64,000 nucleotides of DNA from Actinomadura macra NBRC 14102 (lineage in GTDB: Bacteria; Actinomycetota; Actinomycetes; Streptosporangiales; Streptosporangiaceae): positions 496,001 to 560,000 of the forward strand of contig NZ_BCQT01000009.1 of assembly GCF_001552215.1 (NCBI RefSeq), in the 5' to 3' direction. The first letter of the stretch is position 1, and every line of letters begins with the position of its first letter. Position numbers and translations under genes: made by a program. Below are positions 2,443-31,510 of the stretch, piece by piece. The notes beneath the pieces were generated by a model. It was not told the origin of the DNA, ran no database searches, and saw nothing but the letters and a program-made list of their open reading frames with translations.

Positions 2443-2976
2443 GTGCCCCTGCACAACGATGGCACGGAATCGCTGGTGGTCCGGGCCCGCGACGGCGACG
2501 GCGCCGCGTGGGCCCGGCTGGTCGAGCGTTACAGCCCGATGCTGTGGACGATCGCGCGCGGGCACGGGCTGAACGACGCCGACTCGGGCGACGTGGTGCA
2601 GACCGCGTGGCTGCGGCTCGTGGAGCGGCTGGACGAGCTGCGTGATCCCCCCGCGGTCGGTGGCTGGCTCGCGACCACCGCCCGTCACGAGAGCGCACGC
2701 CTGGCGGCCCGGCGGGGCCGTGACCTCCCGTCGTCCGCCGCACCGGTCGTCGCTGCGCTCGACCGCGCTCCCGACCAGGTGGTGATGGCCCGCGAGCGCC
2801 TCGGTCAGGTCGCCGCCGCCCTCTCGGCGCTCCCTCGCCGCTGCCAGATGCTGCTGCGGCTGGTCGCGCAGGCCGCCTGTCAGGCCGAGTTGGCGGCGGC
2901 GCTGCGCATACCGGTCGGCAGCGTCGGCCCGACGCGCGCGCGGTGTCTCGCCACGCTGCGCAGGCTCGTCCGGTGA
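2443..2976 (+). CDS. ECF-like RNA polymerase sigma factor
   Basis: A 177-residue sigma-70 family protein. The first half holds a region 2-like segment (AWARLVERYSPMLWTIARGH through the DVVQTAWLRLVERLDEL helix). The second half (from about residue 115) holds a region 4 helix-turn-helix with LPRRCQMLLRL and a recognition helix around IPVGSVGPTRARCL. The length and two-domain layout match ECF-type factors in actinobacteria. The GTG start at 2443 follows AAGGGAG at 2428-2434. Its stop overlaps the next start by four bases (GTGA). No anti-sigma factor is recognisable, so the adjacent small protein or the proteases may control it; that is inference. Confidence 0.85.
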   Translation: MPLHNDGTESLVVRARDGDGAAWARLVERYSPMLWTIARGHGLNDADSGDVVQTAWLRLVERLDELRDPPAVGGWLATTARHESARLAARRGRDLPSSAAPVVAALDRAPDQVVMARERLGQVAAALSALPRRCQMLLRLVAQAACQAELAAALRIPVGSVGPTRARCLATLRRLVR

Positions 2977-3422
2977 ACGAGGACGACCTGCTGGCGCAGG
3001 TGCGGGCGGCGTTCGAGGCATTCGACCCGATTCCGGAGAGCGTCCTGTCCGCGGGACGCTCCGCGATCGGGTGGCGGGTGCCGTCCGCGGTGCTGGCCGG
3101 GCTCGCCGCCGACCGGACCGGGCCCGTGGAAGCGGGGGTCCGGGGCGGGACGTCCCGCGCGCTGACGTTCACCTGCCCCGGTCTGAGGCTGGAGGTCGAG
3201 GTGACCGGGGCGGGGCGGCACCGCGAGGTCACCGGACGGCTCGACCCGCCCGCTCCCGCGCTGGTCGAGGTCCGCCATCCGGACGTTACACCGGGAGGGC
3301 TGACGGCCCGCGCCGAGTCCGACGGGCTGTTCTGCCTCCCGCGCGTACCCGAGGGGCTGACCAGCCTCGTCCTGCGGTTCGCGGACGGGACGTCCATCGT
3401 CACGAGCTGGATCCACCTGTGA
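2973..3422 (+). CDS. small protein with beta-rich C-terminus, CHAT-module partner
   Basis: A 149-residue cytosolic protein beginning MNEDDLLAQVRAAFEAFDP, with a helical N-terminal half and a C-terminal half that reads like a carboxypeptidase-regulatory or Ig-like beta sandwich (LVEVRHPD, ARAESDGLFCLPRVPEG, ending SWIHL). I recall this as a recurrent actinobacterial family encoded next to sigma factors and TPR-CHAT proteins; no function is established that I know of. It starts on a GTG overlapping the sigma factor stop and its own TGA overlaps the CHAT start, so the three are translationally coupled. It could be the anti-sigma element, or a substrate or adaptor for the CHAT protease. Confidence 0.75.
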   Translation: MNEDDLLAQVRAAFEAFDPIPESVLSAGRSAIGWRVPSAVLAGLAADRTGPVEAGVRGGTSRALTFTCPGLRLEVEVTGAGRHREVTGRLDPPAPALVEVRHPDVTPGGLTARAESDGLFCLPRVPEGLTSLVLRFADGTSIVTSWIHL

Positions 3423-5968
3423 GCGCGCCCGGCGAACGCGCGCTGCTGCGTCTGGCGGCCATGGCCCCCACGACCGCGCGCACCCGCGCCTTGACCCTCC
3501 TCGAACGCGCGGTCACCGCGTCCGAGGAGATCCTCGCGCTGCGCGTGGCGGGCTTGGCCGCCAAGGAACTGGGCCATCTGGACGAGGGTCTGGGTCATCT
3601 CCGCCATGCCTTGGATCTCGCCGAAGGACGGCGGCCGCCGGGCGACCGCGACGCGTACGCGGCGGCGCAGGTGCGGATGAATCTGGTCGGGCTGCTCGCG
3701 GCGCGGGGCGAGTGCGAGGCGGCGCTCGCGCACGCGTCGGAGGCGGAGCCGGTCCTGAGCGGGCCGGACGCGGATCGGCTGGCCGCGAACAGGGCGTGCG
3801 TGCTCGCGCGTGCCGGGCGGGTCTCCGAGGCGCACGATCTCGCCGCGCGCGCTCTGCCTCGGCTGCGGCACGGGAACGACCCGGCGACGCTGAGTGGTCT
3901 GCTCACCAATCTGGGCCTTGCGCGAGCCTTGCGCGGGGACTTCGACGATGCGGAGCAGGCTCTAGCAGAGGCGGTCGCGGTGGGTGAGGCAGCGGGTTTG
4001 CGCCACCAAACGGCGATGGCCAAGGGCAACATGGCCTTCGTAGTGTCCCGACGTGGGGACGTACCGCGCGCGCTTCGGCTCTTCGCTGAGGCCGAGCCCC
4101 AACTGACTGGCGAACGCCTGGCGCAGTGCCGTTTCGACCAGGCGGAGACCCTCATCGTCGCGGGCCTGCCAGGCGAGGCCCGTCCGGTCCTTGAGGAGGC
4201 TCTGGCAGCGGCTACAGCGAACGGGTACCGGTGTGACGTCGCGGACGGCCTGCTTCTTCTCGCCCACGCCGAACTTGCCGATGGCCTGCCCGGACGGGCG
4301 GCGGGCACGGCCGAGCGGGCACGGGACAAGTTCGCCGGGCAGGAGCGCACCGGATGGATGCTGCTCGCCGAGCACGTGCTGCTCCGCGCGAGGTGGGTCT
4401 CCGGGGAGCGCTCGGAGGCCCTTCTCGACACGGCGGTGGCCACGGCGGAAGGGCTGGACGACTGCGGCTGGAGCGATGCGGCGGCGGACGCCCGTATCGT
4501 CGCAGCGCGCGTGGCGATCGCGCAGGGCAGGCCGGCGGGCGATCTGCTCAGGGTGGTCGGCCGGATGCGCGGACCCGCCGCTGCCAAGATCTCCGCCTGG
4601 CACGCCATCGCCCTCGAACGATCGGCCAAGGACGACCATAGAGGCGCCATCGAGGCGGTTCAGGCCGGTCTCCGGGTGACCGAGGAGCACGCCGAGGTGC
4701 TCGGTGCTCTGGACCTGCGGGCCCGGGCGGCCGGATTCGCGACCGAACTCGCGGAACTCGGCCTGAGCCTGGCCGGCTCCGCGCAAGAGCTGCTCGCTCT
4801 GGAGGAACGGCGCCGTGTACTCGCGCGTCCGGTGCGGGTCCGTCCGCCCAAGGAGCCCGGACGGGCCGCGGCACTGGCCGCACTGCGGGCGCTGAGCGTC
4901 GAGCACACGGCCGACACTGCGCGCGGCGGGGTTCCGTCGGTCCTGTCGGAGGACCTGGTCGCCCTGGAGGCCCAGGTGATGGCGCACACGCGCCGTCGGA
5001 CGCCCGACGGGCTGCCGAGCCACTGCCCCGACATCGGTGAGATCGCCGCCGCGCTGGACGGTCGCGCGCTCGTCGAACTGGTCGCGATCGGGCCCGAACT
5101 GCACGCCGTGACGGTCACCGACGGGCGCGTCCGCCGACGGCGCCTCGGGCCGTGGGACGCGGCCAGCCACGACATCGGCATGGCCCGCTTCGCGCTGCGC
5201 CGCCTGGCTGCGGATGAGGACGACCCGCAGGCCGTCGCGGCCTTGGTCCACTCCAGCACTCGTCTGGAACGTCTCCTGCTGGCCCCACTGCGCGCGGACC
5301 TCGGCGACCGTGAACTGGTCATCGCCCCGACCGGGCTGCTTCACGGTCTGCCTTGGGCGACGCTGCCGTTCCTGGCCGGACGTCCGTTCACGGTCGCCCC
5401 CTCCGCGGGCGCGTGGTTGCGTGCCTGTGCGGTCACTCGTCCGACCGGCCATGTCGTCCTCGCAAGTGGGCCCGACCTGATGCACACGGCGCGTGAACTC
5501 GACGCACTCCGGCGTGTCTACCCCCACGCTCTCGTCTTGGACGGTCCGGGGGCGCGCGCGGAACATGTCCGTGACGCCATGGACGGTGCCCTGCTCGCCC
5601 ACATCGCTGCCCACGGTGAGTTCCGGCCGGGCAACGCCCTGTTCTCGCTCCTGCGCCTCGCCGACGGCCCGCTGATGGTCCACGACCTGGACGGGCTGTC
5701 CGCGCCGCCGCACGTCATGGTGCTGTCCGCGTGCGACATCGGACGCGCGGACGAGGGCGACGCCGTCCTCGGCATGGCGGGCGTCCTGCTCGCCCTCGGG
5801 ACCGCGACGGTGATCGCCAGTGTCGCCCCCGTCCGGGACGAGGTGACGCCGGAGTTCATGTCCGCCTTCCATGCGGAGCTGGCCGGGGGACGGTCACCGG
5901 CGCGGGCCCTGGCGTCCGTCCGGCGTTCCCCCGGCGTGGCGGGCTTCCTGTGCCTGGGCGCCGGGTGA
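3419..5968 (+). CDS. TPR-CHAT caspase-like protease
   Basis: An 849-residue protein. Roughly residues 20-500 are alpha-helical repeats of TPR type (for example ALTLLERAVTASEEILALRV and repeated A-x-A-L-A blocks). Residues about 600-849 form a CHAT domain, a caspase-like cysteine protease fold. The expected catalytic dyad is present: His732 in HIAAHGEF and Cys772 in VLSACDIGR. CHAT proteases are known in bacterial conflict and signalling systems (for example Craspase), where TPRs gate the protease. Translation starts at GTG 3419, overlapping the previous stop. No signal peptide. The target is unknown; the coupled small protein, the sigma factor and the S8 protease are candidates. Confidence 0.88.
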   Translation: MSAPGERALLRLAAMAPTTARTRALTLLERAVTASEEILALRVAGLAAKELGHLDEGLGHLRHALDLAEGRRPPGDRDAYAAAQVRMNLVGLLAARGECEAALAHASEAEPVLSGPDADRLAANRACVLARAGRVSEAHDLAARALPRLRHGNDPATLSGLLTNLGLARALRGDFDDAEQALAEAVAVGEAAGLRHQTAMAKGNMAFVVSRRGDVPRALRLFAEAEPQLTGERLAQCRFDQAETLIVAGLPGEARPVLEEALAAATANGYRCDVADGLLLLAHAELADGLPGRAAGTAERARDKFAGQERTGWMLLAEHVLLRARWVSGERSEALLDTAVATAEGLDDCGWSDAAADARIVAARVAIAQGRPAGDLLRVVGRMRGPAAAKISAWHAIALERSAKDDHRGAIEAVQAGLRVTEEHAEVLGALDLRARAAGFATELAELGLSLAGSAQELLALEERRRVLARPVRVRPPKEPGRAAALAALRALSVEHTADTARGGVPSVLSEDLVALEAQVMAHTRRRTPDGLPSHCPDIGEIAAALDGRALVELVAIGPELHAVTVTDGRVRRRRLGPWDAASHDIGMARFALRRLAADEDDPQAVAALVHSSTRLERLLLAPLRADLGDRELVIAPTGLLHGLPWATLPFLAGRPFTVAPSAGAWLRACAVTRPTGHVVLASGPDLMHTARELDALRRVYPHALVLDGPGARAEHVRDAMDGALLAHIAAHGEFRPGNALFSLLRLADGPLMVHDLDGLSAPPHVMVLSACDIGRADEGDAVLGMAGVLLALGTATVIASVAPVRDEVTPEFMSAFHAELAGGRSPARALASVRRSPGVAGFLCLGAG

Positions 5969-21015: not shown

Positions 21016-22386
21016 ATGGGCGCGGCGGAACGCTTGCGGCGGACTTGGCACGTCCTCATGGACGCGTCGCCGCCGGAGCACCCCGAGGACGAGCCTGGTG
21101 AGATCGTCGACCCGCGGGCGATCGACCTTGTGCTGCGTGTGGGCGAGCTGTTGCTGGCCAGTGGCGAGACCACCGAGCGTGTCAACGAGGCGATGCTCGG
21201 CCTCGCGGTGGCCTACGAGCTACCGCAGTGCGAGGTGCAGGTCACGCTGACGAGCCTCTTGGTCAGCGCCCACCCGGGCAAGGACGCGCAACCGGTGACG
21301 GGCTCGCGGTCCATTAGGCGCCGTACGCCCGCGTACTGGCGCCTCACCGCGCTGCACAATCTCGTCCAAGAGGCGTCTATCGGCATGCTGGATCTGGACG
21401 AAGCGCATCGGCAGCTTGCGGAGATGAAGAGGGGCCGTGCTCCGTATCCGCCGTGGCTGATCGTGGTCTCGCTCGCGCTGATCGCCGCGTCCGGCAGTGT
21501 GCTGGCGGGCGGCGGGCCGCTCGTGGCGGGGACGGCGTTCGTGGCCACACTGCTCGGCGACCGCACCGCCGCGGCCTTGGCGCGCCGTGGTGTGGCCGAG
21601 TTCTTCCAGCTGACGGTGGCCGCGGCGATAGGCGCGAGCGGTGCGGTGCTGGTGGTGGCCATGGGCAACCCCGCGCAGGGGTCCGCGATCGTCACGGGCG
21701 CGATCCTGGCGCTGCTGCCCGGGCGTCCGCTGGTGGCGAGCATCCAGGACGGCATCACCGGTGACCTGGTGAGCGCCGGGGCGCGGATGCTGGAGGTCTT
21801 CTTCATGATCGCGGCGATCGTCGCGGGGCTGGGGGCGATCGTCTACATCGCGGTCAAGCTGAACGTGTCGATCGACGTCAGTCACCTGCCGAGCGCGCCG
21901 GCGACGCTCAAGCCCGTCGCGGTGATCGCGGCGGCGGCCGTCTCGGTGACTTTCGCGGTGTCGCTGGCGGCACCGCGGGACGTCCTGCTCGCCTCGGCGC
22001 TGGGCGGCGGGCTGATCTGGGTGCTGTACGTCCTCCAGGTGGGTTGGGACGTACCACCAGTCCTGGCCTCGGCCGTGGCGGCGACCATCGTGGGCGTCAT
22101 GTCGAACTGGCTCGCCAGACGGCACCAGGCGCCGGTGATGCCCTTCCTGGTCCCGGCCATCGGCCCGCTCCTGCCGGGGACCGCGCTGTACCGGGGCATG
22201 GTCGAGCTGAACGCCGGCGCCCCGCAGTCAGGCGTGCTGAGCCTCATCGGGGCGCTTTCGGTGGCGTTGGCACTGGGCGCCGGAGTGAACCTCGGCGGGG
22301 AACTCGTCCGCGCGTTCCAGCACGTCGGCTTGAGCGCTTCCGGACGCTGGGCCCGTCCCGCCGCGCGACGGACGCGCGGCTTCTGA
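21016..22386 (+). CDS. thrE: ThrE-type threonine/serine exporter
   Basis: A 456-residue inner membrane protein. A cytosolic N-terminal domain (residues about 30-150, with LVLRVGELLLASGETTERV) is followed by about ten membrane helices starting at PPWLIVVSLALIAASGSV. This is the fused ThrE layout (ThrP plus ThrE2 domains) of the exporter first described in Corynebacterium glutamicum, which expels threonine and serine using the proton gradient. The GRPLVASIQDGITGDLVSAG segment is the conserved loop. It diverges from recQ. The ATG at 21016 is preceded by a G-rich ribosome binding site. Substrate is inferred from family. Confidence 0.85.
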   Translation: MGAAERLRRTWHVLMDASPPEHPEDEPGEIVDPRAIDLVLRVGELLLASGETTERVNEAMLGLAVAYELPQCEVQVTLTSLLVSAHPGKDAQPVTGSRSIRRRTPAYWRLTALHNLVQEASIGMLDLDEAHRQLAEMKRGRAPYPPWLIVVSLALIAASGSVLAGGGPLVAGTAFVATLLGDRTAAALARRGVAEFFQLTVAAAIGASGAVLVVAMGNPAQGSAIVTGAILALLPGRPLVASIQDGITGDLVSAGARMLEVFFMIAAIVAGLGAIVYIAVKLNVSIDVSHLPSAPATLKPVAVIAAAAVSVTFAVSLAAPRDVLLASALGGGLIWVLYVLQVGWDVPPVLASAVAATIVGVMSNWLARRHQAPVMPFLVPAIGPLLPGTALYRGMVELNAGAPQSGVLSLIGALSVALALGAGVNLGGELVRAFQHVGLSASGRWARPAARRTRGF

Positions 22387-22753: not shown

Positions 22754-23908
22754 ATGGTCACCGGAACATCACTTACTGGTACCCCTCGCGCGGCGCACTT
22801 CGTGGTAAGCGACTGGCAGTCCGTCGCCTTCGGCACAGGGCCCGCCGACCGTCGGCGAGCCGAGGCCGGTGTAGCCGCCGCCTACACGTCCGCCGGTCTG
22901 GACGTCCCCACGCGGTATGTGTGGGTGCCCTCCCCCGCGCGTGGAGCCGTCGCGGCGGCCGTCTTGGCCGGGCAAGGCGACGACCTGCGCAAGGCCGGGT
23001 TGGGCGACCTGGTCGATCTCGCTCAGGGCGACCTCGGCGAGGAGCCCGCCGGGGCGAGCGTCCTGAATACGGTCAGGACGCGTCCATGGGAGGCGGAACG
23101 TACCGCGGCCTGCTCCGAACAGGGGCCGGAGCAGTGGCCACGGGTATGGGCCGAGACCGGCGGCCTCCTTTGGAACCAGGTGCAGTCGCTGGTCACGCGG
23201 GTGCGCGCAGCCATCGGCGCACTCGCCGACCAGGGCCCAGGCGGTGCCGACTCGCCGGCGCGGGACGCGGCGGAGGTCGTCCTGCGCGCCGCCACCCTCG
23301 ACGCGGTCCTGGGCCAGCACGACGCGCCATGGCTCGCGCTCTTCGAGTCGCTCGGGCGGCTCACCGGCCCGCTGGACGGGCTGGCGGAGGCCGCCCGGTC
23401 CGCGGGCTGGTGGTGGCCGTACGAGAACCTGGTGATCCTCTCCGAGCGTCCCTCGGACCTGTATCGCGACGAACCCGGCCGGCTGCATCGCGGCGACGGC
23501 CCGGCTCTGGGCTACCCGGACGGCTTCTCGTTGCACGCCTGGCGCGGCATGCCGATCCCGCCCGACTTCGTCGACTCGCTGACGGGGCTCACCCCCGGCC
23601 GGATCTCCGCCGAGCAGAACGCCGAGCTACGCCGGGTGATGCTGGAGATCTTCGGTTACGACCGGTACCTGGCCGAGACGGGTGCCCGCCCGCTGCACCG
23701 CGACGAGACGGGGGTGCTGTGGTCCATCGATCTGCCCGGTGACGAGCCCGTCGTCATGGTGGAGGTGGTCAACTCCACGCCCGAACCCGACGGCACGCGC
23801 CGCACCTACTATCTGCGGGTCCCGCCCAGCACACGCACGGCGCGCGCGGGCGTCGCCTGGACTTTCGGTGTGGACGAGGCGGACTACCACCCGGAGAAGC
23901 AGACCTGA
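22754..23908 (+). CDS. DUF6745 family protein
   Basis: A 384-residue cytosolic protein matching DUF6745 in its recognisable landmarks: AARSAGWWWPYENLVILSER, the HRGDGPALGYPDGF segment, and the C-terminal AGVAWTFGVDEADY. No catalytic motif is apparent. The family is uncharacterised; it commonly occurs next to the small protein encoded just upstream. The ATG at 22754 follows GAGGCACGG. The pair is closed by a large hairpin at 23938-23988. Confidence 0.75.
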   Translation: MVTGTSLTGTPRAAHFVVSDWQSVAFGTGPADRRRAEAGVAAAYTSAGLDVPTRYVWVPSPARGAVAAAVLAGQGDDLRKAGLGDLVDLAQGDLGEEPAGASVLNTVRTRPWEAERTAACSEQGPEQWPRVWAETGGLLWNQVQSLVTRVRAAIGALADQGPGGADSPARDAAEVVLRAATLDAVLGQHDAPWLALFESLGRLTGPLDGLAEAARSAGWWWPYENLVILSERPSDLYRDEPGRLHRGDGPALGYPDGFSLHAWRGMPIPPDFVDSLTGLTPGRISAEQNAELRRVMLEIFGYDRYLAETGARPLHRDETGVLWSIDLPGDEPVVMVEVVNSTPEPDGTRRTYYLRVPPSTRTARAGVAWTFGVDEADYHPEKQT

Positions 23909-24024: not shown

Positions 24025-24879
24025 CTACGTTCGGCCGAGCAACGCGGGGATGCGTTCGAGGACGCCTCCCGCGAAGGTGTCGTAGAGGCCGAGCGGTTCC
24101 AGATGCACGTAGCCGATATGGCAGTCGCAGGTGTCCAGCGGGCAGGGACGCGGCGCGAGGGCGCCGAGATACGAGCCGTCGTACAGGTTGCCCAAGACGG
24201 TCGGGACGAAGTGGCAGCGGCGCACCGTCCCGTCACCGTCCACCGAGACGACGCTCTCGCCGGTGCGGCAGGCAAGGCCACGGCTCGGGTGGGGATGGCG
24301 GCTGACGGGGAACAGCGGGTCGATCTCGGTCCAGGCGTCGGCCTCGGCGTCGCCGTAGCGGCGCCCCTCGGCCGCGTTGACCCACAGGTACGTCGCGGCG
24401 GGCAGGTCGGCGCGGAGCCGGCGGGCGGCGTCGAGATGTTCGGGCTGCCCGACGATCCCGACGCTGTACCGGATCCCGCGCCGCGTCAGGTCGCGGCATT
24501 TGCCAAGGAAGCGTTCGTACGGCACCTGGCCGGGATGGTAGGTGGCCCACAGCGCCAGCTTGGACGGATCCGCCTCCGACGTCCACGACGTCCGGTGGCT
24601 CAGGTTCGTCTGGATGGCCACGCGTTCGACGTGCGGAAGACGGCTGAGGTCCACCAGGGCACGCCGGTACCACGACCGCACGAGCCCTTCACCCCACGGC
24701 GTGAACAAGACCGAGACGCGATGGTCGCGGCCGGCGACCCAGCCCGTGAAGCGTTCGAGCGCCGCACGGTCGGCACGAAGCTGCTCCGGCGTATCGCGGC
24801 GCTTGGCGAACGGACAGTAGGGGCAGTCGTAGTCGCAACTGGCGAGCGGGCCCCGGTAGAGGATCGTGAGGTCTTCCAT
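24025..24879 (-). CDS. STM4011-like radical SAM protein
   Basis: A 284-residue radical SAM enzyme. The 4Fe-4S motif CDYDCPYC (Cys15, Cys19, Cys22) is at the N-terminus, and extra cysteines (ACRTG, RRCHF, CPLDTCDCHIGY) near the C-terminus suggest an auxiliary cluster. It matches the STM4011 family named from Salmonella, whose reaction is unknown. It is the last gene of a six-gene operon: its ATG overlaps the stop of the STM4012-like gene (ATGA). With an ATP-grasp protein, a second radical SAM protein and LRR-like proteins in the same operon, it may modify a peptide or protein; that is inference. Confidence 0.85.
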   Translation of the reverse strand: MEDLTILYRGPLASCDYDCPYCPFAKRRDTPEQLRADRAALERFTGWVAGRDHRVSVLFTPWGEGLVRSWYRRALVDLSRLPHVERVAIQTNLSHRTSWTSEADPSKLALWATYHPGQVPYERFLGKCRDLTRRGIRYSVGIVGQPEHLDAARRLRADLPAATYLWVNAAEGRRYGDAEADAWTEIDPLFPVSRHPHPSRGLACRTGESVVSVDGDGTVRRCHFVPTVLGNLYDGSYLGALAPRPCPLDTCDCHIGYVHLEPLGLYDTFAGGVLERIPALLGRT

Positions 24880-26183
24880 CAGCGCGTCTCGTAGGCGGCC
24901 ATCCGTTCCCGCACGTGCGGCGAGAACAGAGCTGGACCGATGGCGTCCGAGTGCGCGAGCCCGTCGGAGGTCAGGGAGATGGAGGCGGGCGCAGTCTCAA
25001 GCCATCCTCGCTTGTCGAAGGATGCCAGATCGGTGGCGAAGTCGTCGGAAGGGTCTGTGCCAAACCGCGCACGATAGGCGCTCCGGTCCAGACCGGTAGT
25101 TTGCAGAAGAGACTGGACGAGGTGACGACGCCGGCGTTCGTCCTCGTCCAGGACGAAGCCCACGCGGGCGGTGCTGAAGTCGTCCTCGCGAACGTAGTCG
25201 TCGATGATGGCGCGAACGTGCCTTGCCTCGACCGCGTACTCGAACGAGTAGTGCAGGCCCGTCGTGTAGGAGCGGGCTCCGCATCCCAACCCGACCATGC
25301 CGTCCGTCTGGCAGCAGTACTCGGTGCCGCCCGCGTTCTCGACCGGCAGTCGGAACATCCGCATCGACACTTGCTCGTACCCTTCGGCCAGAAGGTGGTC
25401 ACGGCCGATCCGGTAGAGCGCGAGGCGCAGGTCGTCCCATTCCCTGCGGGACTCCTTGTCGAGCCGATGGAGGCCCGTCCCCGGCCGGACGTACAGCGGG
25501 TAGAGGTAGATCTCTTCAGGACGCCACGCCAGGGCGGCGTTCAGGGAGTGCAGCCATGTCGTCGGTGTCTGACCGTCGATTCCGTAGATCAGGTCGATGT
25601 TGAGGGTCGGGAACCCCACGGCACGGATGCGGTCGAGCGCGGCCTCCACCTCGGCACGTTTCTGCGGCCGGACGGCAGCGCGCGCCTCCTCGTCGATAAA
25701 GCTCTGCACGCCGATGGAGACGCGCGTGGTACCGCGCTCGGCGAGGACGGTGAGCCGGTCGGTGGTGGCGGTCGCCGGGGACGTCTCCACGCCCAGCGGA
25801 GCCGATCCGAATCCGGAGAATCGTCCGGCGATATCGCAGAGGCGTTCCAGTTCGGGCGCGGTCAGGTAGGTCGGGGTGCCGCCGCCGAACGCCGCCGTGG
25901 CGAACGAACCGGCCCCTTCCAGGGCATCCAGGACGGCGGTGGCCTGCCGGTCGAGCGCGTCGAGGTAGGCACCGGTCAGCTCTTCGGGCGCGCCCGTCCG
26001 AGTGAAGAGGTTGCAGAAGCCGCAGCGCATCTCGCAGAAGGGGATGTGCAGGTAGAGGAACAGCGCGTCAAGGGCCTCCCCGGCCCACACCTCCCTCAGC
26101 GCGGGCGGCGGCTCGAACGGACGGTAGGCGGTCTTGTGCGGGTACGCGTAGACGTAGTGCTGGTACCGGTCTGTTGAAGTCAC
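24879..26183 (-). CDS. STM4012-like HemN-type radical SAM protein
   Basis: A 434-residue radical SAM protein with the HemN-type motif CEMRCGFC (Cys50, Cys54, Cys57) after YLHIPF, a GGGTPTYL loop and a HemN-like C-terminal domain ending with FDKRGWLE. It is not a coproporphyrinogen oxidase by context; it matches the STM4012 family. The GTG at 26183 overlaps the upstream gene's stop (GTGA), and its own stop overlaps STM4011. Two different radical SAM enzymes in one operon imply two radical steps or a radical methyl- or alkyltransferase chemistry, since HemN-type proteins bind a second SAM. Confidence 0.85.
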   Translation of the reverse strand: MTSTDRYQHYVYAYPHKTAYRPFEPPPALREVWAGEALDALFLYLHIPFCEMRCGFCNLFTRTGAPEELTGAYLDALDRQATAVLDALEGAGSFATAAFGGGTPTYLTAPELERLCDIAGRFSGFGSAPLGVETSPATATTDRLTVLAERGTTRVSIGVQSFIDEEARAAVRPQKRAEVEAALDRIRAVGFPTLNIDLIYGIDGQTPTTWLHSLNAALAWRPEEIYLYPLYVRPGTGLHRLDKESRREWDDLRLALYRIGRDHLLAEGYEQVSMRMFRLPVENAGGTEYCCQTDGMVGLGCGARSYTTGLHYSFEYAVEARHVRAIIDDYVREDDFSTARVGFVLDEDERRRRHLVQSLLQTTGLDRSAYRARFGTDPSDDFATDLASFDKRGWLETAPASISLTSDGLAHSDAIGPALFSPHVRERMAAYETR

Positions 26184-26971
26184 GGCAGAACGAACTCCCC
26201 GTACGGAACGGTCCACACGACCTCGTGGCCGATGCGGTGCCCGGTGTGCCCGTCCTCCCCGTACGCCGTCCCATGGTCGGAGCAGACGATCACGAAGCAG
26301 GGACGGCGCATCAGGGCGAAAAGCCGGCCCAGATGGGCGTCGACATGCCGCAGGGCGGCGGCGTGGCTCGCACGCGTGTCGCCGTGCGAGCGGGTCCCCC
26401 CATCCAGGTAGAACCAGTTGGGCTGGTGCAGTGACGCCACGTTCAGCAGGAGGAACAGCCGCCGCCGGGCGGGCAGCCGGGCCGTCACCTCGGCGACGCG
26501 GTCGATCTGGTGCGGCAGCGACGCCGGGTCGGTGACGCCGAATCCCGGTTCCCAGTGGCTCTCGGCGAACAGCGACGGCAGGGCGGACCCGAGCGGCGTG
26601 AGCTTGTTGAAGAAGCCCACGCCGCCCACGCAGACGGTGTGGTAGCCGGCCGCGGCAAGGCCGGACGGCAGGTCCGCGGCGTCGAACGTCCAGGTGGCGG
26701 GGGTGGTCGTCTCGCTGCCGGGGAAAGCCCCGGCGAACAGCCGCGGGTGCGGGCCGGGAGACGCTGGGGTGGGCAGGAACCCGGCCAGCATCGCGGCGTG
26801 CGCCGCATAGGTGAAGCTGCCGGGCGTGTGGCGGCGCTCCCAGCGGCCATTGGGGAGAAGCCCCGTGAGCGTGGGCGTCGCCCCGGACGCCGCCAGTTCG
26901 GCGGCCACGTCATAGCGCAGCGTGTCGAGGGTCACCAGCAGCACATCGTGGCTGCCGATGACCTCGTTCAT
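26180..26971 (-). CDS. STM4013-like hydrolase, alkaline phosphatase superfamily
   Basis: A 263-residue member of the alkaline phosphatase/sulfatase superfamily, matching the STM4013/SEN3800 family. The metal-binding LDTLRYDV (Asp16, Asp21), the nucleophile region GSFTYAAHAAMLAG and the C-terminal SDHGTAYGEDGHTGHR metal ligands are present. It has no signal peptide. The start at 26971 overlaps the ATP-grasp gene stop as ATGA; an ATG three codons earlier is also possible. It probably hydrolyses a phosphate or sulfate ester of the product or substrate made by its operon partners; the substrate is unknown. Confidence 0.85.
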   Translation of the reverse strand: MNEVIGSHDVLLVTLDTLRYDVAAELAASGATPTLTGLLPNGRWERRHTPGSFTYAAHAAMLAGFLPTPASPGPHPRLFAGAFPGSETTTPATWTFDAADLPSGLAAAGYHTVCVGGVGFFNKLTPLGSALPSLFAESHWEPGFGVTDPASLPHQIDRVAEVTARLPARRRLFLLLNVASLHQPNWFYLDGGTRSHGDTRASHAAALRHVDAHLGRLFALMRRPCFVIVCSDHGTAYGEDGHTGHRIGHEVVWTVPYGEFVLP

Positions 26972-28053
26972 GTCGTACATGCGGGGGCGGACTCCGGCAG
27001 AGTGGCTCTGACCTGGGCAGTGTAGGTGTCGAGCCCGTCCGCTGAGGTGCCGGGGAGGCCGAGCAAGCCCGGGAGCAGATCCCCGAACGCGTTGACCTCG
27101 CACACCGCGAACCGCTTCAACCCCATGAGGACGAGCAGATCGACGCCGACCATCGGGCTGCCGGGGAAGCAGGCGGCGGCGCGCGCACACACGTCGAGCG
27201 CTCGGCGCCAACCGTTCTCGCCGAGCGCGCGCTGCACCGCCCCGAGGTCTCCTCTGGCACCGCCGAGATGCAGGTTGGTCATCGGGCTGCGGCTCGTCCG
27301 GACGACCGCGTGGGTGGGTTCGCCACCGATGACGACCACCCGCAGGTCGAACACGCGCCCGTCGACCGTGGCCTTCGGCAGCCATCGCTCCACATGCAGA
27401 CCGTCCGGTGCCAGAGCGTCGATCAGCGCGGCCACGTCCCGCTCGCTCTCGTACGTCTGGAGACGCAGCGAGTTGAACAGACCGGACGGTGTCGTGGCCG
27501 CGGACGTGACGGCTCTGACTCGTCCACCGGGCGCCGTCCGCAGCGCCACCACCCCCGACGCGGACGATCCGTGCGCCGGCTTGGCGAACACCCTCCGCTC
27601 GCCAGCCCCGTCCATCAGCGAGCGTAGTTCCGCGTAGTTGCGGGCCGGTGGGAGCGCGGCGGGGACCGGGACCCCGGCGGCCAGCAGCCGGGCGTGCGAT
27701 CGTCGCTTGTCGAACATCACCGCGATGTCCTCGACGTCCCCCAACAGCCGCGCGCCCGCGCGCGCCGCCGACGCGTCGATCCTGGCGAGCGCGGCGGTAA
27801 ACGTCCAGTACCAGACGGCGCCGCCGCCCACACGCGCCGGGTGGCCGGGGCCACGCAGGAGCGCGTCGGCCGCCGGGTCCTCCCCCGGCGAGTCGATGCG
27901 GAGCAGGTCGCCCGGGTCGAGGACGAGCGGGGAACCGCGCAGCACGTCCGTCCAGGGGACGAGCCGGGGCTCGGGCAGCCCGGACGAACGGCACGCGGCG
28001 GCGAACAGAACGGAACGCCGGTCGCCGGGCGTGCCGATGACGACGGTGGTCAT
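26968..28053 (-). CDS. STM4014-like ATP-grasp protein
   Basis: A 361-residue protein that matches the STM4014 family and shows the layout of ATP-grasp ligases: MFDKRRSHARLLAAGVPVP, a glycine-rich loop FAKPAHGSSASGV, the Mg-binding FDLRVVVIGGEPTHAVVR and CEVNAFGD near the C-terminus. ATP-grasp enzymes join a carboxylate to an amine or thiol through an acyl phosphate. The ATG at 28053 overlaps the stop of the LRR-like gene (ATGA). In the operon it could ligate an amino acid or peptide; this is inference from fold. Confidence 0.83.
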   Translation of the reverse strand: MTTVVIGTPGDRRSVLFAAACRSSGLPEPRLVPWTDVLRGSPLVLDPGDLLRIDSPGEDPAADALLRGPGHPARVGGGAVWYWTFTAALARIDASAARAGARLLGDVEDIAVMFDKRRSHARLLAAGVPVPAALPPARNYAELRSLMDGAGERRVFAKPAHGSSASGVVALRTAPGGRVRAVTSAATTPSGLFNSLRLQTYESERDVAALIDALAPDGLHVERWLPKATVDGRVFDLRVVVIGGEPTHAVVRTSRSPMTNLHLGGARGDLGAVQRALGENGWRRALDVCARAAACFPGSPMVGVDLLVLMGLKRFAVCEVNAFGDLLPGLLGLPGTSADGLDTYTAQVRATLPESAPACTT

Positions 28054-29000
28054 TCCGACACCGCGATGTAGAGCGCGCTGGAAGGCGACTGGTCGTTCAC
28101 CCACTCCGGCTCTGCGACCGATCCGTCGAGATCAACCTCGACACCGGGCAGAGCAGCGCGGAGTCGGTTCGCCATTGCCTCGGACAGGAAGGCATGGTGC
28201 AGGTCGAGCCTGCGCAGGTGCGTGAGAGGCTGCCCGCCCAGCAGCGCCTCCACACCCCGGTCGGTCAGCATCCCCATGGCCAGGCTCAATGACTCCAGCC
28301 GCGCCGCGATGGGGGCGGTCGCGATGGCCTGCGCCAGCTCGTCCTGAAAGGCACCGTTCTCCAGGCCGAGATGCTTCAGGGCCGGCAGCCGCTCCCCGGT
28401 CATGAGGGGCGCGAAGTCCTCAAGCGCGGACGTCCCGTCGTACCACTCGGACCCGATCCACAGGTCGAGGTGCTCCAGCGCGGGCAGGTCGGCGGCCGCC
28501 ACCGCACGCGTCACCTCGGCGGGCAGCCCGCCGGACTCGATCCTCAGCACCCTCAGCCGTTCGCTGCGCGGCGGCTCGAAACGCAGGTCCGACGCGCCAC
28601 GGATCTCGAAGTGCTCCAGCCCCGGATAGGCCGCGAGCAACGGCGTGATGTCGCCGTACTTGATCCAGGAGATGTGCTGCTCCCAGTCGAGGACGTCGCC
28701 CAGGAACAGGGCGCGCAGGCGCGGGAACCGGCCGGCCACCCCGACGAGCAGGTCCCGCACGTCGAAGTCGAAGTCCCACCAGCCGACGACCAGGTGGGTG
28801 ACCTGCGCGGTGTCGACGTTCTCCAGGAACCAGTCGAAGCTGTCGGAGAAGCTCGCGACCCACCGTCCGTCACGCTCACGGTGACGGACGGCCCAGGCCA
28901 CGTCCCCGGCCGCCGGCAGCGGATCACCGTCCGGCTCCGGTTCGCCGTCCACGGTGACCACCGGCAGGCCGGCGAATGAGGAAAGGTGTTCCTCGATCAT
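28050..29000 (-). CDS. STM4015-like LRR-type protein, first copy
   Basis: A 316-residue cytosolic protein with degenerate leucine-rich repeats of about 25 residues (FPRLRALFLGD, LPALEHLDLWIG, LPALKHLGLENG, LTHLRRLDLHH). It matches the STM4015 family, thought only to be a scaffold or binding protein. It ends with YIAVSE and is closely similar to the gene upstream. The ATG at 29000 is preferred; a GTG at 29006 is in frame too. Its start region is overlapped by a 17-base repeat that also forms the 3' end of the neighbouring copy. Confidence 0.8.
   Translation of the reverse strand: MIEEHLSSFAGLPVVTVDGEPEPDGDPLPAAGDVAWAVRHRERDGRWVASFSDSFDWFLENVDTAQVTHLVVGWWDFDFDVRDLLVGVAGRFPRLRALFLGDVLDWEQHISWIKYGDITPLLAAYPGLEHFEIRGASDLRFEPPRSERLRVLRIESGGLPAEVTRAVAAADLPALEHLDLWIGSEWYDGTSALEDFAPLMTGERLPALKHLGLENGAFQDELAQAIATAPIAARLESLSLAMGMLTDRGVEALLGGQPLTHLRRLDLHHAFLSEAMANRLRAALPGVEVDLDGSVAEPEWVNDQSPSSALYIAVSE
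28051..28067 (-). repeat. 17-bp repeat at the end of STM4015 copy 1
   Basis: CATTCCGACACCGCGAT (plus strand) encodes the ending IAVSE-stop and overlapping ATGA start. It is identical to the repeat at 29015-29031 and one mismatch from 28998-29014. Confidence 0.85.
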
Positions 29001-29031
29001 TCCCACACCGCGATCATTCCGACACCGCGAT
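28998..29031 (-). repeat. two tandem 17-bp repeats at the STM4015 gene junction
   Basis: CATTCCCACACCGCGAT at 28998-29014 is followed directly by CATTCCGACACCGCGAT at 29015-29031, one mismatch apart. The second is the 3' end of copy 2; the first is its remnant immediately before copy 1. This is the scar expected from duplication of the whole gene together with its ATGA junction. Confidence 0.85.
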
Positions 29032-29961
29032 GAAGCGCCAGTCGTCGTCCGGCTTCTCCTGCTCGCTCAGATCGACCTCGACGCCGGGCAGCGCGGCCCG
29101 GACCCGCTCGATCATGGTGTCGGACAGGAAATGGTGGTGCAGGTCGAGCCTGCGCAGGTGGGTGAGCGGCTGGCCGGACAGCAGCACCTCGGCGCCCTGG
29201 TCGGTCAGGACGCCCATCGCCAGGCTCAGCGACTCCAGCCGCGCCACGATCGGCGCTCCGGCGACGGCGGCGGCCACCTCGTCCTGGATCTCGCTGTCCT
29301 CCAGGCCGAGGTGGCGCAGCGCGGGCAGCCGTTCACCACCGAGGAGCGGCGCGAGGTCGGCGACGGTCGCGTCGCCACCGTAGTTGTCCTCGCCGAGCCA
29401 CAGGTCGAGGTGCTCCAGGTTCGGCAGCTCGCTCGCGCCCACGGCCTGGACGATCCGCGCGGGCAGCCCGCCCGACTCGAACCGCAGCACCTTCAGCGTC
29501 GTGCTCTTGATCGGGGCGAGGGTGAGGTTCTCGGCTCCGCGGATGTCGAACCGCTCCAGCGCCGGGAACGCCGTGAACAGCGGCGAGATGTCGGAGTGCT
29601 CGATCCAGGAGATCTCCGACTCCTCGCCGACGATGTCGCCGAGAAACAGCGACGTCAGTTTGGGGAAGGACGAGGCGGCCCCGGTGAGCAGGCTGACAGG
29701 GTCGGAGACGTTCTCGTCGTAGGACGCGCCCCAGTAGCCGATGACAAGAGCCGTGATCTGGGTGGTGTCGACCGCTTCCAGGAAGCGCGCGAAGGTCTCG
29801 TTGAACGGCTCCGACTCGAACATCGTCCCGACGTACCACGCCGCTTCCGCCGGAGGCGGGTATCCCTTGCCGTCGGGGCCGGCCTCCGCGCCCGACTCCT
29901 TTCCGAAGAACCTGCACACCGGCAGCCCGGCGTACTCCTCCAGATGCTGATAAACGCCCAT
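29014..29961 (-). CDS. STM4015-like LRR-type protein, second copy
   Basis: A 315-residue paralogue of the next gene downstream, with the same degenerate leucine-rich repeats (FPKLTSLFLGD, LPNLEHLDLWLG, LPALRHLGLED, LTHLRRLDLHHHFLSD) and the same ending, FIAVSE. The two copies differ mainly in the N-terminal third, so they may bind different partners. The ATG at 29961 follows AAGGGG. It is the first gene of the overlapped operon. Two copies imply gene duplication, with possible specialisation of a recognition or scaffold protein. Confidence 0.8.
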   Translation of the reverse strand: MGVYQHLEEYAGLPVCRFFGKESGAEAGPDGKGYPPPAEAAWYVGTMFESEPFNETFARFLEAVDTTQITALVIGYWGASYDENVSDPVSLLTGAASSFPKLTSLFLGDIVGEESEISWIEHSDISPLFTAFPALERFDIRGAENLTLAPIKSTTLKVLRFESGGLPARIVQAVGASELPNLEHLDLWLGEDNYGGDATVADLAPLLGGERLPALRHLGLEDSEIQDEVAAAVAGAPIVARLESLSLAMGVLTDQGAEVLLSGQPLTHLRRLDLHHHFLSDTMIERVRAALPGVEVDLSEQEKPDDDWRFIAVSE

Positions 29962-30025: not shown

Positions 30026-31510
30026 TCAATCGTCCTCGTTCTCAAATCCCTCGAATCCGGGCTCTGCGTCCTCACCAGTCCCTGAACCGGTTTCCGGGGC
30101 GGCGCCGAGCAGGCCGCGGGTGAGCGACTGGGCCGGGTCGAACATCTCCGCCAGCGCGGCGCCGAAATGGGCGCCGGTCAGAGCGTCCGGTTCCCCGCCC
30201 TCACGGAGTGCGACCAGCACGGCGCGGCGGACGAGCTCCTTGATGAACGACGCGGTCACGCCCTCGGTGCGGGCGGCGATCTCCTCCAGGTCCGCGGCGA
30301 GGCGCAGCTCGCGCCCGTACAACCGCAGCAGTGCCACCCGCCCCTGGAGGTCGGGACGGGGTATCTCGACGGCCAGGTCGACCCGTCCGGGGCGTTCGGC
30401 CAGGGCGCTCTCCAGGGAGCCGACCCGGTTGGTGGTGAGGACGAAGACGACATCGGCGTCGCCCGCGACCCCGTCCATCGCGTCCAGCAGGGAGAACAGC
30501 AGGGGGCTGGAGCCACCCTCGACGAGGTCGCGGTCCTCGGCGACGAGGTCCACGTCCTCCACGATGACGATGGAGGGCTGGAGACTGCGCGCCAGCGCCA
30601 CGGCATCGTCCAGGAACCGCATGGCGGGGCCGGTGAGCTGGACGACCGTGTAGTCCAGAAGCCGCCCCATCAGGTAGCGGACCGTGTGGGTCTTGCCCGT
30701 GCCAGGCGGGCCGTGCAGCAGCAGCCCGCGTTTGAGGTGCTGCCCGGCGGCGAGGAGTTGCTCGGCGTGCTCGGCGATCCCGACCACGTGCGCCTCGATC
30801 GCCTCCAGCCGGCCGTCCGGCAGGACGACGTCGGACGCGGCGAGGTGCGGCCGGGGCAAGAAGGTGACCAGCGCGTTGTCGCGGTGCTCGCTGGCGTTGA
30901 AGCCGAGCACCTGGCCGCGCATCACATCGTGCTCGCGGCGGAGCCGGTCCAGTTCGTCGCGGACGGCGGCCGCGGTCGCCCGGTCCCGCGCGAAGACGGT
31001 GAGGACGCACAGCGCCTCGTATGACTCGCGGGTGACGACGCCGACGACGACCGGCGACCCGTCGGGGGCCACCGTCGGCACCAGGCCCAGCTCGACGACC
31101 TCCATCGACTCGGCGGGGCCGACGGCGGCGGTGCCGTAGTCGGGGCGGCCCAGCAGGTACGTCCCCATCGTGATCGCCGCGTTGATCATGGAGCTGATGT
31201 TGTCGAAGTGCCGCTCGGCGCCGGCGATGCCGAACCACTCGGCGCCGGGCGAGCGGTCCGCCAGGTAGGCGTCGATCCCGCGCTGCAGGCCGGCGTGCTC
31301 CCAGCTCTTGAAGTCGTGGCCGACCGTCACCAGGTCATGGAACGCGATCCCGATGTGATCGCTGATCCGTGCCACGAGCGGCGACGCCGCGTTGTCCTCG
31401 GTGAGCCGCTCACCCGCGGTGCGCAGAAGGCGCTGGAGCCCGCTGGCCAGGGTACGTGCGGTGTCCAGGTCGAGTTCCCCGTCTCCCTGGCCCCTCACGG
31501 CATCGGTCAC
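30026..31510 (-). CDS. AAA+ ATPase, CDC48/spastin-like core
   Basis: A 494-residue cytosolic AAA protein. The N-terminal 250 residues are a family-specific domain. The AAA core has Walker A GPPGTGKTHT (around residues 266-275), Walker B VIVEDVD, sensor 1 VLTTN and an arginine-finger region (ERPGRVDLAVEIPRPD). The C-terminal lid helices end in a short acidic tail, EGFENEDD. It probably remodels or unfolds protein with ATP. It lies 64 bases upstream of the STM4015-STM4011 operon on the same strand and may be its first gene, though the gap is large enough for a separate promoter. Start GTG or ATG near 31510 is unconfirmed. Confidence 0.8.
   Translation of the reverse strand: MTDAVRGQGDGELDLDTARTLASGLQRLLRTAGERLTEDNAASPLVARISDHIGIAFHDLVTVGHDFKSWEHAGLQRGIDAYLADRSPGAEWFGIAGAERHFDNISSMINAAITMGTYLLGRPDYGTAAVGPAESMEVVELGLVPTVAPDGSPVVVGVVTRESYEALCVLTVFARDRATAAAVRDELDRLRREHDVMRGQVLGFNASEHRDNALVTFLPRPHLAASDVVLPDGRLEAIEAHVVGIAEHAEQLLAAGQHLKRGLLLHGPPGTGKTHTVRYLMGRLLDYTVVQLTGPAMRFLDDAVALARSLQPSIVIVEDVDLVAEDRDLVEGGSSPLLFSLLDAMDGVAGDADVVFVLTTNRVGSLESALAERPGRVDLAVEIPRPDLQGRVALLRLYGRELRLAADLEEIAARTEGVTASFIKELVRRAVLVALREGGEPDALTGAHFGAALAEMFDPAQSLTRGLLGAAPETGSGTGEDAEPGFEGFENEDD

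Follow-up and report, generated by a model that had tools for sequence, protein, structure and literature searches.

We analysed a stretch of 64,000 nucleotides from Actinomadura macra NBRC 14102 (the window; contig NZ_BCQT01000009.1 of assembly GCF_001552215.1, forward-strand positions 496,001 to 560,000) that carries an operon of the STM4011-STM4015 families. The leucine-rich repeat (LRR) protein of this set, STM4015, ends in a nearly invariant glutamate and is encoded together with STM4014, an ATP-grasp protein related to LysX, ArgX and RimK. RimK is an ATP-grasp ligase that acts at the C-terminal Glu of ribosomal protein S6, and LysW, the carrier on which LysX and ArgX act, is a small protein. 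On the strength of sequence comparisons and structural models, we lean towards the reading that STM4014 joins an amine to the Glu at the end of STM4015. Six head-to-tail genes on the minus strand fill positions 24025-29961, and every encoded protein exceeds its curated NCBIfam cut-off, which confirms the six genes and five families that an earlier note on this DNA had described:

29014..29961, minus strand: STM4015a, the distal LRR paralogue, 315 residues, ending WRFIAVSE; NCBIfam NF038076, 378.4 bits (cut-off 275)
29017..29040, minus strand: conserved C-terminal tail of STM4015a, WRFIAVSE; terminal Glu codon GAA, then TGA
28050..29006, minus strand: STM4015b, the proximal LRR paralogue, 318 residues, GTG start, ending ALYIAVSE; NF038076, 327.6 bits (cut-off 275)
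28053..28076, minus strand: conserved C-terminal tail of STM4015b, ALYIAVSE; terminal Glu codon GAA, then TGA
26968..28053, minus strand: STM4014, ATP-grasp ligase related to LysX/ArgX/RimK; NF038074, 422.6 bits (cut-off 175)
26180..26971, minus strand: STM4013, alkaline-phosphatase-superfamily hydrolase; NF038075, 401.6 bits (cut-off 250); alternative start ATG at 26980
24879..26183, minus strand: STM4012, HemN-like radical SAM enzyme, GTG start; NF006067, 626.7 bits (cut-off 380)
24025..24879, minus strand: STM4011, radical SAM enzyme with a cysteine-rich auxiliary part; NF038073, 405.6 bits (cut-off 200)

For the comparison of STM4015 tails, frames were pooled from the order loci, the plasmid records, the named loci and the window. 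STM4015 was the best family for 209 frames, from which one that ran off a contig end and 15 that covered less than 60% of the model were dropped, leaving 193 frames, or 190 distinct proteins. Of these 190, which come from 11 or 12 phyla as judged from record titles, 188 end in Glu. Both exceptions are individual cases: L124, which has an apparent frameshift, and one copy from L097, which ends AIAVSEYLQD. The L097 locus (2728-3711, Herpetosiphon) holds four LRR copies, and the one concerned, with four residues beyond the usual IAVSE end, is possibly decaying. Among the 15 partial frames, eight end in Glu and seven do not, the latter being six fragments in L048, L050 and L051 and one weak 33-bit match in L123. 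The Glu-ending pattern [YF]-x4-E-stop occurs in 180 of the 188 proteins that end in Glu, and an aromatic residue lies within positions -6 to -8 of the end in 188/190. Beyond the aligned profile, 188 of the 190 proteins continue for 13 to 33 residues, the outliers being L124 and L135 with 98 and 148. Net charge averages -4.9 over the last 20 residues, as against -1.5 per 20 residues elsewhere in the protein. Tails from distant lineages read YMNAMYTE in Salmonella, WRYPSLTE in Paenibacillus, WRFVALGE in Deinococcus and WYYPMITE in Bacteroides. The information at the last residue is 4.23 bits for STM4015, compared with 0.8-1.2 bits for STM4011, STM4013 and STM4014 and 2.5 bits for STM4012. We considered whether the terminal Glu is a by-product of the ATGA overlap with the next gene and rejected this explanation, because just 45/188 end in GAATGA and because all 12 STM4015 copies in six stretches without STM4014 also end in Glu.

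We also observed a tight association between the LRR protein and the ligase. In a survey of 160 genomes of the window's order, its own genome included, 98 have an STM4015 match at an E-value of 1e-3 and 94 have one above the cut-off. STM4014 and STM4015 exceed their cut-offs in the identical 94 genomes, and none has only one of the two. All five families occur together in 100 of 104 STM4014 loci, and STM4015 lies directly upstream of STM4014 on the same strand in 101 of the 104 by count and in L062 on recheck; the remaining two loci (L159 and L166) start at a contig end. STM4011 is on the strand opposite STM4014 in 11/104 loci, six of them from Myxococcota according to their titles, and there the STM4015-STM4014 pair stays adjacent. 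Nine genomes with a STM4011 locus lacking STM4015 were searched, and all nine carry STM4015-like matches elsewhere, eight at E-values below 1e-50 (one in two pieces with a stop) and one, a planctomycete bin, at 4e-11; the match exceeds the cut-off in one of the nine. A whole-phylum survey gave STM4015 matches in 6 of 296 genomes, again with the window's own included. The gene set is not a chance arrangement, for it recurs in many phyla. The earlier note had called these families widespread yet uncharacterised, and both descriptions stand: they recur from Salmonella to Deinococcus, cyanobacteria and actinomycetes, and we found no functional study of the STM4011-STM4015 families in literature searched without most subscription papers, while a crystal structure of an STM4015 homologue (2RA8) exists. 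Single genes appear in tables, in the parts of those sources that are accessible, as a sigma-54 site listed at STM4013 and as a selection table that includes STM4015. The accessible part of a paper on Bacteroidetes iron (PMC10434189) holds no link to these families, and two related papers on ATP-grasp enzymes, searched by term, mention neither LRR nor STM names.

In the window the five families are encoded by adjacent genes, with STM4015 present twice, and identity between the two copies is 55% across 302 alignment columns. STM4015b and STM4014 overlap by ATGA, as do STM4014 and STM4013 provided that STM4013 starts at 26971, and STM4013 and STM4012 overlap by GTGA. STM4012 and STM4011 share a single base and STM4015a is followed by STM4015b after a 7-base gap, so that the description of nearly all junctions as ATGA or GTGA holds for three of five and was slightly overstated. 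The duplicated LRR gene had also been taken to make an unusual six-gene version of the operon. This did not hold, because 73 of the 94 order genomes have at least two STM4015 matches (range 1-12, median 2.5; fragments may count), and we therefore rejected LRR duplication as an unusual feature; the conserved neighbourhood here also has eight genes rather than six, with a DUF6745 gene and a small-protein gene included. In the named set (L083-L170), 54 of the 69 STM4014-holding loci have a single LRR copy. A search of the window's own genome with the proximal copy found no STM4015 beyond these two.

LRR arrays reach seven counted copies in one locus, and a single enzyme set may be accompanied by several LRR copies, some of them encoded elsewhere in the genome. 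A tree of 56 STM4015 copies, in which bootstrap support is not fully settled, contains many lineage-specific duplications; it places STM4015b of the window beside the second STM4015 of Actinomadura sp. NBRC 104412 (99/93) and STM4015a beside a same-genus copy (98/83). Orphan LRR copies without STM4014 were found in six stretches (L052, L054, L057, L058, L059 and L067), whose genomes hold the operon elsewhere. In three of the six (L052 11338-11715, L054 7124-7474 and L059 13975-14277) the orphan STM4015 has as its neighbour a small protein, roughly 75 residues long if counted from its likely start, which no other searched stretch contains; inspection by eye showed no neighbour common to all six. 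Two plasmid records show other arrangements. In the Salmonella record (L083 6207-16310), ompL and typA-glnA flank a single-LRR operon, and a Cof-type HAD gene comes after it. The Bacteroides operon (L090 4876-8893) has an STM4015 with an N-terminal WGR domain and a short STM4013 match, and STM4012 was not found in it.

The kinship of STM4014 was examined by sequence profile and by structure. A search of the PDB with a profile of 62 STM4014 sequences returned Thermus LysX first (3.9e-7) and RimK next (1.2e-5), with the DLR and TN motifs aligned. The AlphaFold model of STM4014 has a predicted local distance difference test (pLDDT) score of 95.4, and its best Foldseek matches are ArgX:LysW, LysX/ArgX with LysW-gamma-AAA, LysX and RimK. 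When the Foldseek list was re-aligned with VIA, for which rows within 1 Z count as tied, ArgX:LysW scored Z 24.0 (root-mean-square deviation (rmsd) 2.7, 269 residues aligned), and the top nine rows, at Z 24.0-22.0, are all LysX, ArgX or RimK. LysX/ArgX and RimK take the lead in each of these comparisons. Ten residues are invariant in the 62 sequences (K116, K158, D236, R238, R252, T259, N260, D305, E319 and N321), of which K116, K158, D305, E319 and N321 are those that we take to be expected in an active ATP-grasp enzyme.

Given these observations, we propose that the STM4015 LRR proteins would be substrates and STM4014 their dedicated C-terminal ligase. STM4014 would use ATP to activate the carboxylate of the terminal Glu and would join to it an amine, perhaps an amino acid or an amino-phosphate, on the model of LysX/ArgX with the carrier LysW and of RimK with ribosomal protein S6. 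STM4011, STM4012 and STM4013, with a HAD hydrolase as a further member in some lineages, would then transform the attached group or neighbouring aromatic residues. The product would either be released, which would make the LRR protein an amino-group carrier, or be kept as a built-in C-terminal group, and we regard these two fates as about equally likely. The gene set, its co-occurrence, the tail, the kinship of the ligase and its conserved residues are observed; we infer the ligation step, the order of the steps, the amine and the fate of the product. We hold the coupling step to be somewhat more likely than not. More tentatively, and with a confidence somewhat short of even, the LRR proteins may be amino-group carriers or recipients of a built-in C-terminal cofactor, with the group working in the conserved LRR cradle. 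It is possible, to the same tentative degree, that one maturation set (the LysX-like ligase, the two radical SAM enzymes and phosphatase-like hydrolases) loads and rebuilds the group on a single LRR protein or on many, some of them encoded elsewhere in the genome. The earlier note had suggested a peptide- or protein-modifying pathway with the LRR proteins as a possible substrate; that suggestion is not proved, and it gains support from the Glu in 188/190 tails, from the co-occurrence of a LysX/RimK-type ligase with STM4015 in 94/94 genomes and from an SkfB-like auxiliary domain in STM4011.

Several observations weigh against this proposal. A fixed last residue is not unique to STM4015, since DUF6745 ends in T in 33/33 and its small partner protein in D in 48/48; a fixed end alone proves nothing, and STM4015 differs in the varying length that precedes its Glu. 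The fold preference of STM4014 is modest, with glutathione synthetase at Z 21.9 and DcsG at Z 21.3, and DcsG, the graspetide ligase PsnB and PPIP5K2 follow close behind in the Foldseek list. Because STM4014 scores far under the NCBIfam cut-offs for both RimK (TIGR00768, 29.5 bits against 143.4) and LysX_arch (18.2 against 275.6), we class it from its sequence as a relative of LysX/ArgX/RimK and not as a member. The best solved matches of STM4013 are sulfatases, with nucleotide pyrophosphatases next. A release peptidase is absent from the operon's five families, and carriers would not need numerous diverging copies. Finally, the STM4015 tail appears ordered in the AlphaFold model of STM4015a (pLDDT 95.1 overall, mean 93-94 over the last 15 residues), and the alignment of that model with 2RA8 (Z 31.3, rmsd 3.7, 286 residues aligned), for which the first and last aligned residues are given, reaches the last residue, 315. 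2RA8 is the solved Bacteroides fragilis homologue Q64V53 (4.7e-80, and 2.1e-176 when compared with a STM4015 from Bacteroides). The matching part of 2RA8 finishes at ITE, after which eight residues follow, and we found no paper on this structure in the literature searched.

Since the model is confident to the last residue and the 2RA8 alignment ends at 315, the tail is probably docked against the LRR body. A docked tail would fit a structural latch and would also suit a cradle that houses a working C-terminal group. The first possibility leads to a rival explanation, which we consider unlikely but the strongest of those weighed here: the tail would fold back and cap the LRR horseshoe, STM4015 would act as a scaffold for recognition or assembly, and a free small molecule would be made by enzymes that leave the tail untouched. 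Such a scaffold agrees with the confident, fully aligned tail and with the near-invariance of several non-leucine LRR residues (E116, S118, W119, R141, G142, W188, Y194 and D254). Counted over 191 rows, S118 is kept in 189, W119 in 188, G142 in 190, G190 in 191 and the terminal E in 190. However, capping leaves unexplained both a Glu at the very end of 188/190 proteins despite variable tail length and the exact co-occurrence with a LysX/RimK-like ligase.

The tailoring enzymes bear on a second rival. STM4011 has the radical SAM motif C-x3-C-x2-C and five more invariant cysteines in 7 sequences, and a profile of these sequences has SkfB (1.6e-4, over the auxiliary part) as its only solved match up to an E-value of 0.05; its Pfam SPASM score, 15.2 bits, is under the cut-off of 21.5. 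STM4012 exceeds the Pfam cut-offs for Radical_SAM and HemN_C and keeps Y44, H46, C50, C54 and C57 invariant in 20 sequences. STM4013 exceeds those for Sulfatase and Phosphodiest, with D19, T57, H185, D235 and H236 (P0003 numbering) invariant in 28 sequences; Thr at its presumed nucleophile position, we assume, favours phosphate over sulfate chemistry. The alignments comprise 61 of 62 locus sequences plus the window's (A2), 51 of 76 plus two (A3), and 24, 18 and 15 of 35, 37 and 22 sequences plus window and plasmid ones (A4, A5 and A6), the source lists for A4 and A5 having already been thinned. A divergent STM4013 group occurs on Streptomyces and Kitasatospora plasmids without the other operon families; one such gene (L087 8986-9780) lies beside a NUDIX gene and a gene annotated as lasso B2, and another (L088 8980-9792) beside a radical SAM gene and, judged by eye, a kinase-like frame.

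SkfB is a sporulation killing factor maturase, and its standing as the sole solved match of STM4011 counts in favour of a modification like that of a ribosomally synthesised and post-translationally modified peptide (RiPP). The radical SAM enzymes would then modify the tail aromatics by methylation or cross-linking and a short modified peptide would be cut off, with the ATP-grasp enzyme making an internal amide or ester or adding residues. The aromatic residue near the end of 188/190 tails and the presence of PsnB among the STM4014 Foldseek matches also fit. We judge this origin a little less likely than the latch, as the modified protein would be a folded LRR protein of 300 residues rather than a short precursor with a leader, and no position of the tail is as invariant as the terminal Glu. 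Likewise, no protease was recognised as a conserved partner in a noisy neighbour screen, and a ThrE-type exporter is confined to some same-genus loci (matches in 7 of 40 fetched order stretches). A RimK-like STM4014 might instead add glutamates to the LRR protein for regulation while the radical SAM enzymes act elsewhere. RimK is indeed among its best matches, but polyglutamylation would not account for the two radical SAM enzymes or for the unit's hydrolases, of which there are one or two, LysX/ArgX score no worse than RimK and the RimK cut-off is missed, which makes this explanation improbable. Least probable of all is a conflict or immunity system in which duplicated LRR proteins diversify toward different targets: seven-copy arrays and lineage-specific duplications would suit it, whereas many LRR residues are kept across copies, most named-set loci are single-copy and PADLOC yields a weak match for just one protein out of eight (P0002, radical SAM, 25.3 bits), a result on which we also rejected membership in a known anti-phage defence system.

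Comparison of operon neighbourhoods, nearby open reading frames included, had been suggested in the earlier note and revealed a pair of genes, convergent with the operon, that it had overlooked:

22754..23908, plus strand: DUF6745 protein, convergent with STM4011; PF20530, 356 bits
22419..22745, plus strand: small protein paired with DUF6745; invariant GHxH and HxEH; DUF7092 match weak and below cut-off

DUF6745 occurs in 27 of 34 order loci with STM4014, and together with the small protein in 23 of the 34. Both are present in 23/69 named-set loci, which span Deinococcota, Chloroflexota, Planctomycetota, Alphaproteobacteria and Actinomycetota. A high-scoring DUF6745 class, which we delimited at E-values below 1e-50, is found in 62 order genomes, all of them STM4014-positive; it lies within 12 kilobases of STM4014 in 60 and on another contig in two. 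The weaker class sits elsewhere, including in genomes without the operon. DUF6745 has no PDB match up to an E-value of 1, and no paper on it was found in the literature searched. In the small protein, H45, H47, H77, E79 and H80 are invariant in 16 sequences, and because these residues form the GHxH and HxEH motifs, they suggest a metal site. Upstream of the small-protein gene is the ThrE-type threonine/serine exporter gene (21016-22386). On the strand of the operon, and 64 bases upstream of it, lies an AAA ATPase gene (30026-31510), which was rejected as an operon member, having 0 matches in 40 other order stretches searched.

The conserved-neighbour screen was swamped by antisense frames, and a HAD hydrolase was the only lead that we kept and retested. 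A HAD frame lies 0-13 bases from the STM4013 or STM4014 frame in 15 loci outside the window's order (L104, L106, L112, L113, L114, L117, L120, L129, L136, L143, L145, L147, L148, L150 and L154), which belong to Myxococcota, Bacteroidota, Planctomycetota, Verrucomicrobiota and their kin; Pfam HAD families were confirmed on three of these frames. The Cof-type HAD gene of Salmonella overlaps STM4011, and STM4011 of the Bacteroides plasmid bears, as judged by eye, a HAD-like C-terminal part. Because phosphatase-type genes recur, they suggest a phosphorylated intermediate.

Among known systems, the closest in layout is that of LysW. Like STM4015, LysW has a globular domain followed by an acidic C-terminal extension and a nearly invariant terminal Glu, which both window copies share, and the ATP-grasp enzyme here is related to LysX/ArgX. 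According to the accessible part of PMC9303977, amino-group carrier proteins rely on activation of their C-terminal Glu and are recognised through the globular domain, the C-terminal extension and acidic residues (PMC9303977). In contrast to the small LysW protein, the putative carrier here is a 300-residue LRR protein, as judged from Pfam and solved structures, and often has several copies per genome. The tailoring enzymes differ as well, being radical SAM and phosphatase-like enzymes, while the operon families, to which the search was limited, do not include the kinase, reductase, aminotransferase and release peptidase that belong to the LysW system, and the operon has no LysK-type release enzyme. 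Thus, with its LRR carrier and other enzymes, STM4011-STM4015 may work like the LysW system but lacks its defining features, and we do not regard it as a member.

RimK and S6 likewise pair an ATP-grasp enzyme with the C-terminal Glu of a protein; here the substrate would be an LRR protein, the unit has extra enzyme families and the RimK cut-off is missed. Radical SAM RiPP pathways (SkfB, graspetides, pearlins) are similar in that radical SAM and ATP-grasp enzymes accompany an encoded tail. Pearlins are built on a carrier C-terminus, as described in the accessible part of PMC9303977. Unlike these pathways, the substrate proposed here is a folded LRR protein of 315-318 residues without a recognised leader, and, unlike pearlins, the core families include no peptide-aminoacyl-tRNA ligase. 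If our proposal is true, it would add a second carrier architecture for amine-tethered biosynthesis or a new protein-derived group from radical SAM enzymes, and a simple C-terminal motif would predict substrates genome-wide. The records of 2RA8 and of the NCBIfam STM4011-STM4015 entries cover the same five families with function unassigned, and the window adds to them two LRR copies and the DUF6745 pair. What is new here is the near-invariant C-terminal Glu of STM4015 paired with a LysX/RimK-like ligase, a pairing that makes an operon of unknown function testable in one tube.

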